A stretch of DNA of 11,783 nucleotides from Salibacteraceae bacterium (GTDB taxonomy: Bacteria > Bacteroidota > Bacteroidia > Flavobacteriales_G > Salibacteraceae), in the NCBI GenBank assembly GCA_023262195.1, contig JALRDM010000069.1, forward strand, positions 1 through 11,783, given 5' to 3'. The translations under genes and the position numbers were made by a program. Under the pieces are notes generated by a model. The model was not told the origin of the DNA. It worked only from the letters and a program-made list of their open reading frames with translations, and made no database searches. Numbering within the stretch: position 1 is the first letter of the stretch; every line of letters starts with the position of its first letter. Shown here piece by piece: positions 1,191-4,823 of this stretch.

Positions 1191-2354
1191 ATGAAAGGTA
1201 TAGCCGTTATATTGTTGATTCTTGCCTCGAGCTCCCTGTGCGCTCAGCGTAAGGCCAATTTCGGTAAACAACCGAAGGATAACAAAAAGGGACGTGCCAT
1301 AAAACTCTATGGTGAGCCCAAATTGGACAGGTCTCCAACCGACTGGACCAAGCTGAGACTGGAATATGTTTTGGGGTTAGGGGCCTCATCTTTTCTAGGA
1401 GATTTAGGTGGACAAGATGGTCCGGGCCTGCCCTTCGTTTATGATTTTGAACCAACGCAAACAAGGTACGCCATTTCTGGAGGGGTACGATACTTTCTTC
1501 GCGAGTATCATGCGCTGAGAGGATCTTTGAGTTACGCCAGATTAAGGGGAAGCGATGCTACCACCAATTATCCGAACAGAAAATACCGAAACTTAAATTT
1601 TAAGTCACCGGTGATTGAGCTAGCGGGTATGTATGAGTTACACCTGCTTAAACCTCAAACTCTACATCTAGCTGGAGCTCGAAACTCCAGGGTTTTTAAT
1701 GGCAATCGTTTTGGAGCTTATGCATCAGCGGGTACGGGATTATTTTTCTTTAATCCGAAAGCACAATTTAATGGAGATTGGTATGCCTTAAAGCCGCTCG
1801 GCACCGAAGGTCAAGGCTTACCAGAAGGCCCCGAGCCATATCGTAGGTTGAGCTTTGCTTTCCCTTTAGGCGGTGGGGTTACCTATCTATTGAATTGGAA
1901 TTATACCATTGGCTTGGACTTTGAATATCGTTGGACTGCCACAGATTATATCGATGATGCCAGTGGTTATTATTATGATAATGCGGCCATTGTAGCTGCG
2001 AATGGAAAACTGGCGGGCACCCTTGCAAACCCAAGTGTATTACTGGATGATGTTCCAGAGCCTGATTGGTATACCGTTAATCAGCCAAGGGGCGGCAGCG
2101 AAAACAATGACACATATCTTTTTCTACAATTGACATTGAGCCATGCTTTGGGTCCAGCCATAACTAATAAGCCGATCAAGCAAAAGAAAAAGAAACCGAA
2201 ACAACTCTATAAAGACAAAAAGAAGGCTCTAAAAGAAGGACGAAAAGCAAGGTCGTACAATAACAGGAAAATCAAAAACAAGAAGAAGCGGTTCAAGAAT
2301 CCCAAGTTGAATTTTGGAAAGAGAAGGAAAAGAAGTAAGATCCGAACCTTTTAG
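1191..2354 (+). CDS. DUF6089/PorG-like outer-membrane beta-barrel protein with polybasic C-terminal tail
   Basis: An outer-membrane protein of the DUF6089 family, which includes the T9SS component PorG; whether this copy serves T9SS is unproven. Residues 1-19 form a signal peptide ending SLCAQ. The family's opening strand is seen at 58-74 (YVLGLGASSFLGDLGG), then SGGVRYFLREYHALRGSLSYARLRG (split over 96-120), the NFKSP turn (136-140), GAYASAGTGLFFF (175-187), and the late strand TIGLDFEYRWTATDYIDD (239-256). The recognisable barrel ends near residue 322. The last 65 residues (323-387) hold about 31 Lys/Arg and only 2 acidic residues, with no predicted barrel strand. KxNFGK occurs both just after the signal peptide (21-26) and in the tail (372-377). 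The gene ends tail-to-tail with the barrel gene on the other strand, sharing TTAG at 2351-2354. Family call is fairly sure; PorG identity is only possible. Confidence 0.8.
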   Translation: MKGIAVILLILASSSLCAQRKANFGKQPKDNKKGRAIKLYGEPKLDRSPTDWTKLRLEYVLGLGASSFLGDLGGQDGPGLPFVYDFEPTQTRYAISGGVRYFLREYHALRGSLSYARLRGSDATTNYPNRKYRNLNFKSPVIELAGMYELHLLKPQTLHLAGARNSRVFNGNRFGAYASAGTGLFFFNPKAQFNGDWYALKPLGTEGQGLPEGPEPYRRLSFAFPLGGGVTYLLNWNYTIGLDFEYRWTATDYIDDASGYYYDNAAIVAANGKLAGTLANPSVLLDDVPEPDWYTVNQPRGGSENNDTYLFLQLTLSHALGPAITNKPIKQKKKKPKQLYKDKKKALKEGRKARSYNNRKIKNKKKRFKNPKLNFGKRRKRSKIRTF

Positions 2355-3625
2355 AATTGATAGGTCAATCCAATGTTGGCATCAATCAGACGTTTGGCAG
2401 TACCGAATGACTCATAGGCTCCCTTTTGATCCACAGCGCTGTTCAATGGGGTCATTATGAGACCAAAGGCTGAAAGGTTTTGGAATAGTTGTCTTTCGAT
2501 TCCCACCATCGCCCCGTACCTTAACGCATTAAGTCCGTCAAGTGATATCACCTCTTCATTGGTGGTGGATGCGTTCACATATTCACTGGTATTATAAACA
2601 GTGATGGATTGGTTTTGGGCGGCAAACAAATAGTCGATAAATACACCTGCAGATGCGATCCATCGATGATTTAGCATGTAATTATACATGATTGGAGTAT
2701 GTATATAATCCATTTGATGTGCAATCATGCCTCTATGCATCACAAGGTCTGATTCGTTGCTCATTGTATTTGCAAATGATTGAACAATAGGACTTACCTC
2801 TGTCTGCTTGACTCGCTCAATAGCATTACCTGTGCGTCTGAGCACACCAATTTCAATGGACATGTATGAACGATCGGTGAGCGACACTCCGTATCCAAAG
2901 GAGAATGTTGGGCTTGCGTTCCATGAAGACTCTCTTATAGAAGAATTAGCCTCACCCGTACCAGTTCTTGCGCCTCCCCTAAAGTACCATACATGATTCG
3001 CCATCCATTTAGAGATAATAGGATTTTCAGGAGTGAATTTTGGGTCTTCAATACTTGGCGTTTCATAAACGTATCCTTTGTTTTCAAGGAGCTCAATGCT
3101 CTGACTGCGTGAAAAGTTGGTGTCAAAAGCATTGAAATTATCATTTGAAACTAAGTGTGGCTCTGCAGATTCAGATTCATTGACGGCTTCTAAGACGGTA
3201 TTCGACCAGTCAGCTTGCTTGTAATTCACGACCTCGGTAGACTCTTCAAAAAATAATTCCTCTGACTCTGATATGGCTCTAGCACCTTTGAGGTCCACTT
3301 CAGGTGTGTTGGTTCGAGATTCTTCAACAACTGTGTTTGCTACGAGCGCTTCAATTCCGATGGGCTCAGCTGTAAGTATGGATTCCGACCTATTGCTTGT
3401 TGATTCATTTACACCTATGGTGGATAGCACAGCGACAAAGAGGGTAGCGGCAATCTTTTGGAAGACTACGGCAGAGCTTGATGAAACTGGGGTTTGAGAG
3501 GCGAATGAGCCATACAAAGACTTCTCAACCGCTTGCCACTCTAAACTAGGATCGAACTTGGTGTTTTTTAGCCCGTCAAACCTCCCTCTGAATATATCGT
3601 CTATTTCATCGTTGTAATCAGCCAT
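2351..3625 (-). CDS. Anti-sigma-like, single-TM protein with C-terminal outer-membrane beta-barrel
   Basis: I chose ATG 3625, giving 424 residues, because its ATGGCTGA overlaps the sigma factor's stop by 8 bases, an arrangement that favours translational coupling. An in-frame ATG at 3640 would add MFISH. Residues 1-50 are hydrophilic and probably cytoplasmic (MADYNDEIDD..., with a conserved-looking FDPSLEW at 24-30). Residues 53-71 form one hydrophobic helix. Residues 72 to about 208 are a Ser/Glu/Asn-rich linker. From about 209 on there are amphipathic strands typical of Bacteroidota porin-like barrels (WYFRGGAR, FSFGYGVSL, YIHTPIMYNYML, LRYGAMVGIE) ending in ANIGLTYQF, with the terminal Phe expected of barrels folded by BAM. 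By position it should be the regulator of the sigma factor. No canonical anti-sigma zinc motif is visible, so that role is inferred. Confidence 0.75.
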   Translation of the reverse strand: MADYNDEIDDIFRGRFDGLKNTKFDPSLEWQAVEKSLYGSFASQTPVSSSSAVVFQKIAATLFVAVLSTIGVNESTSNRSESILTAEPIGIEALVANTVVEESRTNTPEVDLKGARAISESEELFFEESTEVVNYKQADWSNTVLEAVNESESAEPHLVSNDNFNAFDTNFSRSQSIELLENKGYVYETPSIEDPKFTPENPIISKWMANHVWYFRGGARTGTGEANSSIRESSWNASPTFSFGYGVSLTDRSYMSIEIGVLRRTGNAIERVKQTEVSPIVQSFANTMSNESDLVMHRGMIAHQMDYIHTPIMYNYMLNHRWIASAGVFIDYLFAAQNQSITVYNTSEYVNASTTNEEVISLDGLNALRYGAMVGIERQLFQNLSAFGLIMTPLNSAVDQKGAYESFGTAKRLIDANIGLTYQF

Positions 3626-4172
3626 ATGCGAGATAAACATCTGGGTATGCCAATTGAAGCTTAGCTCGAATTTGTCTGCGTGCCGAGCTCAAGTGCCATT
3701 TTGAAGTGCCTACGGAGATTCCTAGTTTTCCGGCAATTTCTTTATGGCTGTAGCCATCAATAGCGAACATGTTAAACACCACTTTGCTTACTGGTGAGAT
3801 GGTATCGATGATGGCCAAGAGCTCATCAATCGACATTTTATTTAAGCCATCGTTATATACCTGATACGTAGGCATGATGGCATCAAAAGAGAAAATATCT
3901 CGATAACGCTTATGCGCTCTGAGGTGATCTAGTGCAGTGTTGATAATAATCCGCTTGCACCATCCTTCAAATGAGTTGCCGAAGTGGTATTGATCAATCT
4001 TTTTAAAGACTTTAATAAATCCTTGATTTAATACATCGAGCGCCTCTTCATCGCCCTTAATGTATCTGCGCACGATGGACATCATCACAGGAAAGTAGGT
4101 TTCGTAAACCTTCTTCTGTGACTTTTGGCTCTGAGCCATACACCCTTCTATATCGGAATCGTTAATGATCAT
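3618..4172 (-). CDS. ECF-type RNA polymerase sigma-70 factor
   Basis: An alternative sigma factor that redirects RNA polymerase. Region 2 spans about residues 24-92 (YFPVMMSIVRRYIKG, then ALDVLNQGFIKVFKKIDQY, FEGWCKRIIINTALDHLR). Region 4 spans about 118-172, with the helix-turn-helix YSHKEIAGKLGISVGTSKWH (141-160) that reads the -35-type element. Length 184 is normal for the group. I place the start at the ATG at 4172 because AAAGG sits 5 bases before it; an in-frame GTG at 4178 overlaps that site and is less likely. The stop overlaps the next gene's ATG by 8 bases, so sigma factor and barrel partner are almost certainly co-expressed. The gap to the upstream gene is 54 bases with no consensus promoter. 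It holds TTGT-G-ACAA (4204-4212 on the other strand), a small inverted repeat that could be an operator or part of an autoregulated promoter. Confidence 0.92.
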   Translation of the reverse strand: MIINDSDIEGCMAQSQKSQKKVYETYFPVMMSIVRRYIKGDEEALDVLNQGFIKVFKKIDQYHFGNSFEGWCKRIIINTALDHLRAHKRYRDIFSFDAIMPTYQVYNDGLNKMSIDELLAIIDTISPVSKVVFNMFAIDGYSHKEIAGKLGISVGTSKWHLSSARRQIRAKLQLAYPDVYLAYG

Positions 4173-4226
4173 CTGCACCTTTAGCTTTAATAATGACGCA
4201 GATTTGTCACAATCGTTTGGTTGTGG

Positions 4227-4823
4227 TTAAATTTTTATAACCGTGGCTTTTGTCAAACCAGAGCCTGGAACAAATACAATCCCATTCATATTGGGGTAGT
4301 AATTCTTGCATGTTTTGATCATTTCAGAAAGAATTTTCTGATACTCTATGCTAGTGAAATTTTGAGGCAGTTCAATTTTACCTAAAACAGTATGCTCGCA
4401 TGTTGGTGCGTTTTCAATGAAGAGATTAATACCGTTTCGGGCAATCGTTTCGGATTTGAGAAAGTCTGGGTTTATCAACACTTCCTTATCCAACTTTGGG
4501 GCATCTTCAGGAGTATAGAATTTCACTACATCGGCCTTGCGAAACCCGGTATTCGGACGGAAAATTATGGCATCAAATTCCACTTCAGGATATTCGTCAG
4601 GAACACGCTTGGTAATCATGTGCTTCATCATGAGGTCAAACTTGTCAGGCGCAACGATTGCGCACTCGATACTCCCTATGTGCCGATAAGGCGTAGAAGG
4701 GTTTGCCTCAATGAATACAGCTTTTTCATAAAAAGTATTTACCTCGCCAGGTGCTTTTTGACCGTATGAGATGAAGAGTGTGCATACAATTAACGCAGTG
4801 GTAGTAAAAGTGGCTTTAATCAT
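4227..4823 (-). CDS. Secreted protein with two tandem copies of one domain, function unknown
   Basis: I do not recognise a named family. Residues 1-21 are a signal peptide (MIKATFTTTALIVCTLFISYG, cleaved near Gln22), so the mature protein is probably periplasmic or secreted. The mature chain is an internal duplication. Copy 1 (about 37-102) runs VFIEANPSTPYRHIGSIE, a helix rich in Met/Lys (KFDLMMKHMITK), then FDAIIFRPNTGFRKADVVKF. Copy 2 (about 134-198) runs LFIENAPTCEHTVLGKIE, a helix (YQKILSEMIKTCKN), then MNGIVFVPGSGLTKATVIKI. The strand-helix-strand plan with G-x-I-E and a D/N-[AG]-I core recalls small ligand-binding alpha/beta domains such as the YbjQ or DUF4156 type, but this is only a resemblance. 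It precedes the sigma factor by 54 bases on the same strand and may be the first gene of that operon. Confidence 0.8.
   Translation of the reverse strand: MIKATFTTTALIVCTLFISYGQKAPGEVNTFYEKAVFIEANPSTPYRHIGSIECAIVAPDKFDLMMKHMITKRVPDEYPEVEFDAIIFRPNTGFRKADVVKFYTPEDAPKLDKEVLINPDFLKSETIARNGINLFIENAPTCEHTVLGKIELPQNFTSIEYQKILSEMIKTCKNYYPNMNGIVFVPGSGLTKATVIKI

Follow-up and report, generated by a model that had tools for sequence, protein, structure and literature searches.

The dual membrane-spanning anti-sigma factors (Dma) of Bacteroides thetaiotaomicron reportedly entered the literature with a PNAS paper in 2024. Their published layout joins, in one chain, an N-terminal domain that interacts with the sigma factor, one transmembrane helix, a long disordered tether and a C-terminal beta-barrel, and such proteins have been reported from Bacteroidota only (PMC13088901). 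Deletion of dma1 leads to more vesicles by relieving repression of Das1, and the rise in vesicles after deletion of dma2 requires Das2 (PMC13088901). We analysed a stretch of 11,783 nt (the window; contig JALRDM010000069.1 of assembly GCA_023262195.1) from a marine Salibacteraceae bacterium, the genome of which is incomplete (79% complete). The window carries a gene for an extracytoplasmic function (ECF) sigma factor, directly followed by the gene for a putative anti-sigma factor (the partner). This pair is probably an envelope-sensing switch of the Dma type.

Like a Dma, the partner is encoded next to an ECF sigma gene and combines a sigma-side module, a transmembrane helix, a tether and a barrel in one chain. 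Judged by this layout, the assignment as Dma-type is well supported, and we take the pair as a new example of a recently described kind. The two differ in origin, Dma being from gut Bacteroides and the window from a lineage of metagenome-assembled genomes (MAGs) in the Flavobacteriales/Salibacteraceae. They also differ in their surroundings, as the neighbours in the window include a PorG-like gene of the type IX secretion system (T9SS) and a subtilase with a T9SS tail. None of the window proteins scanned (six by Pfam, eight by NCBIfam) matched a SusC/SusD, NigD or TonB-receptor family. The initial annotation had proposed that anti-sigma factor and outer-membrane sensor are united in one polypeptide. 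In form this appears to be correct: a single chain from the cytoplasm to the outer membrane is well supported by comparison and modelling, because a shared N-terminal module, one helix, a linker that is kept in length and a barrel occur together. The arrangement is not new, however, as the Dma layout had already been published.

In the FecI/FecR/FecA system, an ECF sigma factor, an inner-membrane regulator and an outer-membrane barrel are likewise found. There, however, a TonB-dependent receptor, which is a protein of its own, forms the barrel, whereas in the window the barrel is part of the regulator's own chain and has the size of OmpA or Ail. Membership in the FecIR type was rejected since no FecR domain or TonB receptor was matched among the window proteins scanned; PF13568 is the sole Pfam match of the partner at E-values up to 1.

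The sigma factor is recognized by Sigma70_r2 (E 2.9e-13) and Sigma70_r4_2 (E 2.7e-11) from Pfam, while its NCBIfam matches are to general families only (TIGR02937 above and TIGR02985 below the cut-off). It may start at a GTG (frame 3618-4178) or at an ATG (frame 3618-4172); most of its relatives in a 19-sequence alignment start at the latter or one residue later. As noted initially, the stop codon of the sigma gene overlaps the ATG of the partner gene, by 8 nt (ATGGCTGA), and 11 of 14 loci in the ortholog group of the window share this offset of -8. Among the other three, an upstream ATG is listed first in the window itself (L001) and in L011, and L029 has a broken frame.

The general plan of the partner given in the initial annotation, which is 424 residues with about 50 N-terminal residues, one helix and a barrel-like end (YQF), was confirmed. 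Its N-terminal residues 1-51 hold 5 Lys/Arg and 9 Asp/Glu. The top hydrophobic 19-mer was found at residues 52-70 (53-71 had been given), with a Kyte-Doolittle (KD) value of 1.93, the best value elsewhere being 1.28. The linker is rich in Ser, Glu and Asn, as stated (E 16%, S 13%, N 10%), and measures 135 instead of 137 residues. The periplasm has a width of 20-30 nm; fully extended, at 0.36 nm per residue, the linker would reach about 48 nm, which should be enough to cross it, as had been supposed.

In the C-terminal part, residues 227-396 are matched by PF13568 (E 7.4e-7; score 29.9 bits, cut-off 27). An AlphaFold model of the partner was computed from an 11-sequence alignment and reached a mean predicted local distance difference test (pLDDT) score of 58.8. 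Within residues 211-424, where nine strand elements are predicted, 17 of 22 ten-residue blocks have a pLDDT of 74 or more. Residues 36-207 are under 50, which is indirect evidence only for disorder as this range includes the helix. When the model was compared with the PDB by Foldseek, the small barrels OmpA-TM (E 1.4e-6), Ail, NspA, OmpX and OmpW were found with probability 1.00 (target TM-scores 0.48-0.56, root-mean-square deviation 6-13 A), and larger barrels ranked after the small ones, several of them at lower probability. With a barrel predicted and matched by small barrels of known structure, it is unlikely that the C-terminus forms no closed barrel. At the sequence level, the sigma profile matches ECF sigma factors in the PDB, and the partner profile has no match there.

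A partner match was obtained in 19 of 60 genomes, the own one included: in all 13 of the genus, in 6 of 22 other family members and in none of the remaining 25. The viral contigs searched yielded no relative. Of the partner's relatives, all 11 that are named come from Flavobacteriales and Salibacteraceae MAGs. The sigma gene is immediately upstream of the partner gene in 18 of 18 relatives. In G009 (L021/L029/L048), a member of the genus, the partner gene is broken into two frames of 83 and 401 aa, by a frameshift or an assembly error, and the match in G026 comprises the N-terminal part alone, the partner ending in a CHU_C domain.

In an alignment of 13 partners, residues 5-39 have a mean pairwise identity of 0.46 and the barrel one of 0.40, as compared to 0.32 in the helix and 0.14 in the linker. 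Five residues of the N-terminal module (D9, F12, R15, F16, W30) are invariant across the 13 sequences. Linker length, which depends on the aligner, ranges over 121-147 residues within the genus (12 members) and is 185 in the single member from another genus. Just two linker columns show at least 60% agreement. One is Asp 76, just behind the helix, which is near-invariant (12 of 13). The other corresponds to residue 180, with Met in 12 of 13 and Leu in the window; it is located 245-256 residues from the C-terminal end, and the next residue is Leu in 8 of 13. In the family of the window, this Met/Leu patch precedes the barrel by about 30 residues. A paralogous barrel family has a Met-Pro patch at a similar place; its best Met column, which was chosen as the one richest in Met, has Met in 14 of 27 sequences.

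The pattern in the linker bears on an alternative in which the same parts convey a proteolytic signal. The intact chain would be the off state, and it would be cut in the periplasm, for example upon failed barrel assembly, and subsequently in the membrane, as is RseA. We consider this conceivable, if doubtful. The RseA/DegS/RseP pathway provides the precedent, a long exposed linker lends itself to cutting by proteases, and a gene for a tail-specific S41 protease is found within the same conserved block of eight genes as the pair. However, the S41 gene is divergent and all eight genes of the block are conserved, so that its nearness weighs little. Also, the conserved columns of the linker amount to the one Asp behind the helix and the one Met/Leu patch by the barrel, no systematic search for cleavage motifs having been made.

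The wider family was searched with a profile of 19 such sigma factors, which matched 159 of 198 Bacteroidota genomes at 1e-22 and, at 1e-25, each of 41 genomes from the order. From the Bacteroidota search we compiled a survey of 80 loci, which is no census (the 60 best places outside the own genome, the next 15 listed and 5 from outside the class). To these we added 40 extra loci from the upper part of the order-wide search, minus the window's orthologs, loci already sampled and a few others. In 79 of the 80 survey loci the gene behind the sigma gene is a partner frame. The exception (L158), where the next frame resembles a permease, was excluded from partner counts. The partners comprise 41 barrel proteins, 2 with CHU_C (by Pfam), 31 short ones (125-301 aa, no named domain) and 5 long ones that are unassigned. 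The barrel count (41 of 80 loci) is from a hidden Markov model (HMM) that was iterated on the same set and that no reversed control passed; by Pfam alone, PF13568 is found in 19 and PF13505 in 10 of the 79 partners, with overlap. A hydrophobic 19-mer (KD 1.4 or more) is present in 75 of 79 survey partners and missing in L105, L122, L123 and L140. One sigma match, in G038, was examined as a possible Dma3-like fusion. It lies in a 673-aa frame that is incomplete in the stretch fetched, and the longest frame of that stretch (485 aa) is unsupported as a partner by the sigma, module and barrel HMMs.

The N-terminal module has about 45 residues, and one Trp column reaches a conservation of at least 90% over the 79 survey partners. 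We trained an HMM for this module on 76 barrel partners and applied it to the 53 non-barrel partners of the survey and the extra loci. All 53 beat the best of 265 shuffles, the weakest (L111, 8.0 bits) being close to the best shuffle (6.5). In a five-fold held-out test, 38 of the 41 barrel partners of the survey beat the best of 205 shuffles. Judged by eye and from a Pro-x-Trp pattern, the module appears to be present as two tandem copies in L095, L102, L110 and L129, which have longer N-termini, and in L027 and others. Because the module is common to barrel and non-barrel partners, it provides the strongest evidence, at the level of sequence, that it is the module rather than the barrel which pairs with the sigma factor.

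Partner class was then mapped on a tree of 137 sigma factors (82 barrel, 31 short, 18 CHU_C, 6 other). For the three named classes, leaving out the 6 unassigned rows, 5 changes are required as compared to at least 40 in 50 shuffles. If the unassigned rows are treated as a fourth group, 11 changes are required against a shuffled mean of 50.1. Taken singly, the barrel class needs 8 and the short class 6 changes, so that neither is a single clade. The 18 CHU_C rows are all on one side of a branch with support 82, and the sigma factor of the window is placed among barrel-type sigmas. The tree was built by a quick method with no mixture model and has long branches. As far as can be judged from such a comparison, the fit of class and tree shows that sigma factor and partner type are co-inherited rather than that they bind, because related genomes inflate such clustering.

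It might be argued that the partner is a common outer-membrane barrel protein that bears a long signal anchor, which is cleaved, and that it just happens to be co-transcribed with the sigma gene. Most PF13568 proteins are simple outer-membrane proteins, and cleavage after the helix is possible. We nevertheless regard this as very improbable, given a conserved pre-helix module that is common to partners without a barrel, the adjacency of the sigma gene in every relative and the tracking of the sigma tree by partner class. A mere signal peptide, which the initial annotation had named among the readings that would speak against its proposal, is likewise unlikely, given that about 50 residues precede the helix and that they hold a module shared across partner classes.

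In the Dma-type switch that we infer for the window, the N-terminal module of about 45 residues would reside in the cytoplasm and hold the ECF sigma factor inactive at the inner membrane. The single helix would span this membrane, and the disordered tether of about 135 residues would span the periplasm. The small C-terminal barrel, presumably inserted into the outer membrane via the normal barrel-assembly route, would be the sensor end. A change in the barrel (a ligand, failed assembly, vesiculation or wall spacing) may then alter the tether and free the sigma factor. Binding of the sigma factor by the N-terminus is suggested by conservation, co-inheritance and the work in Bacteroides. The module could also act in the opposite direction and activate or stabilise the sigma factor in a FecR-like manner, given that FecR-type proteins can be required for sigma activity and that about 45 residues are fewer than in usual class I anti-sigma domains. 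This seems unlikely, however, as loss of Dma1 in B. thetaiotaomicron relieves Das1 repression and the vesicle effect of dma2 needs Das2 (PMC13088901).

Some observations weigh against the proposed switch. AlphaFold confidence is low for the N-terminal module (blocks of 49-55, residues 1-40) and for the helix (32-35, residues 41-70). In the held-out test of the module, three of the 41 barrel partners (L124, L128, L137) did not exceed the best shuffle. Finally, 31 of the 80 loci (L083, L085, L089, L101, L126 and 26 more) have short module-bearing partners lacking a named periplasmic domain, so the module must be able to play its part, whatever this is, in the absence of a barrel.

At 1e-25, two further sigma/partner pairs were detected in the own genome, on contigs C244 and C186. 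The C244 partner (L163) is a barrel protein according to the iterated HMM and has no Pfam match of its own; PF13568 is found in 23 of 27 sequences of its alignment (A7). The C186 partner (L162:621-1628, minus strand; L224) has 336 residues and consists of the module, a predicted helix, an acidic linker and a CHU_C end (E 4.9e-11, over the cut-off), so that a type-B signal for type IX secretion is in the place of the barrel. All 16 aligned members of this class carry CHU_C at E-values up to 0.01. In the stretches fetched, the class covers 12 of the 13 same-genus genomes (it was not seen in G002). Outside of the genus, it occurs in G015 and in three genomes of a further genus, with an added PKD domain. 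In G013, from this PKD-bearing genus, the pair is retained although the neighbours differ.

The own genome has 20 CHU_C domains over the cut-off and is thus likely to have a type IX secretion system. Binding of type-B signals to PorP-like outer-membrane barrels at the surface has been reported (PMC9143113). PorA of Porphyromonas gingivalis, a T9SS C-terminal-domain protein, is described as feeding into SigP signalling (PMC7712824). The PorA-PorXY-SigP pathway resembles the CHU_C class in that a T9SS C-terminal-domain protein acts on an ECF sigma pathway. PorA, however, is a separate, surface-translocated protein that acts via a two-component system, whereas an inner-membrane helix is predicted for the CHU_C partners, which are encoded directly behind the sigma gene. 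A limited literature search found no CHU_C-bearing anti-sigma factors, which is weak evidence of absence. The CHU_C class is a more novel lead than the barrel pair; if real, it would represent a direct line from the type IX secretion system to transcription.

With the window, the Dma layout is now represented in a Flavobacteriales lineage. Comparison indicates which parts are constrained, namely the N-terminal module, the length of the tether and the barrel, but not the sequence of the tether. How a barrel may signal to a cytoplasmic sigma factor thus becomes testable via tether length, the patch before the barrel and the CHU_C class. It is tempting to speculate, and we do so tentatively, that one sigma family throughout the Bacteroidota uses a single modular scaffold of a cytoplasmic module (about 45 residues), inner-membrane helix and tether, the outer end being one of a few old sensor types. 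This end would be a barrel (Dma), a CHU_C domain, which is conserved in this genome and genus and would report on T9SS export, or a bare tail, and in the barrel type the Met/Leu patch might serve for docking or as a plug.

Table 1. Coordinates and basis of assignment for features of the window, and loci of the CHU_C class.
Feature	Position	Strand	Basis or remark
PorG-like/DUF6089 protein with a Lys/Arg-rich C-terminal tail of about 60 residues	1191-2354	+	NF052316, PF19573
Partner, 424 aa; putative trans-envelope anti-sigma factor of the Dma type	2351..3625	-	from ATG at 3625
Outer-membrane beta-barrel (predicted), residues 208-424	2354..3004	-	PF13568, AlphaFold, Foldseek
Periplasmic linker (predicted), residues 73-207, 135 aa	3005..3409	-	length kept, sequence not
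Single transmembrane helix (predicted), residues 51-71	3413..3475	-	hydrophobicity; AlphaFold (low confidence)
N-terminal module, residues 5-39, proposed sigma-binding domain	3509..3613	-	AlphaFold (two helices, at low confidence)
Overlap of sigma stop and partner start, 8 nt (ATGGCTGA)	3618..3625	-	read from sequence
ECF sigma factor with regions 2 and 4; 184 aa when started at ATG 4172	3618..4172	-	Pfam; alignment of 19 family sigmas
198-aa probable exported protein	4227..4823	-	54 nt upstream of sigma ATG (48 nt from GTG)
CHU_C class relatives of the C186 pair	L209-L220, L193, L203, L026		

The pair is embedded in a block of eight genes which is found in fixed order in 12 of 12 regions (11 from the same genus and 1 from another). 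These code for a phosphoesterase, the PorG-like protein, the partner, the sigma factor, the 198-aa protein, an S8 subtilase with a T9SS tail, the S41 protease and HflX (hflX). We do not claim the S41 protease gene or the T9SS genes nearby as functional partners of the pair, because adjacency is uninformative when all eight genes are conserved in every region. The gene for the 198-aa protein is possibly on one transcript with the sigma and partner genes, the only pointer being the tight spacing on the same strand, as the whole block is kept. Among 35 family genomes, strong matches to the 198-aa protein were found only in the 13 genus members and in G015, and a weak full-length match in G028. 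It is thus nearly restricted to the genus and no general component of the switch. Its AlphaFold model is confident (84.9), yet no PDB match was obtained at E 0.001 or better.

The PorG-like protein matches NF052316 with E 3.5e-22, which is below the cut-off, and PF19573 just over the cut-off. Its frame is convergent with the partner gene and overlaps the partner stop codon. In promoter footprinting, some stretches upstream of the 198-aa gene and of the S8 gene appear conserved by eye.

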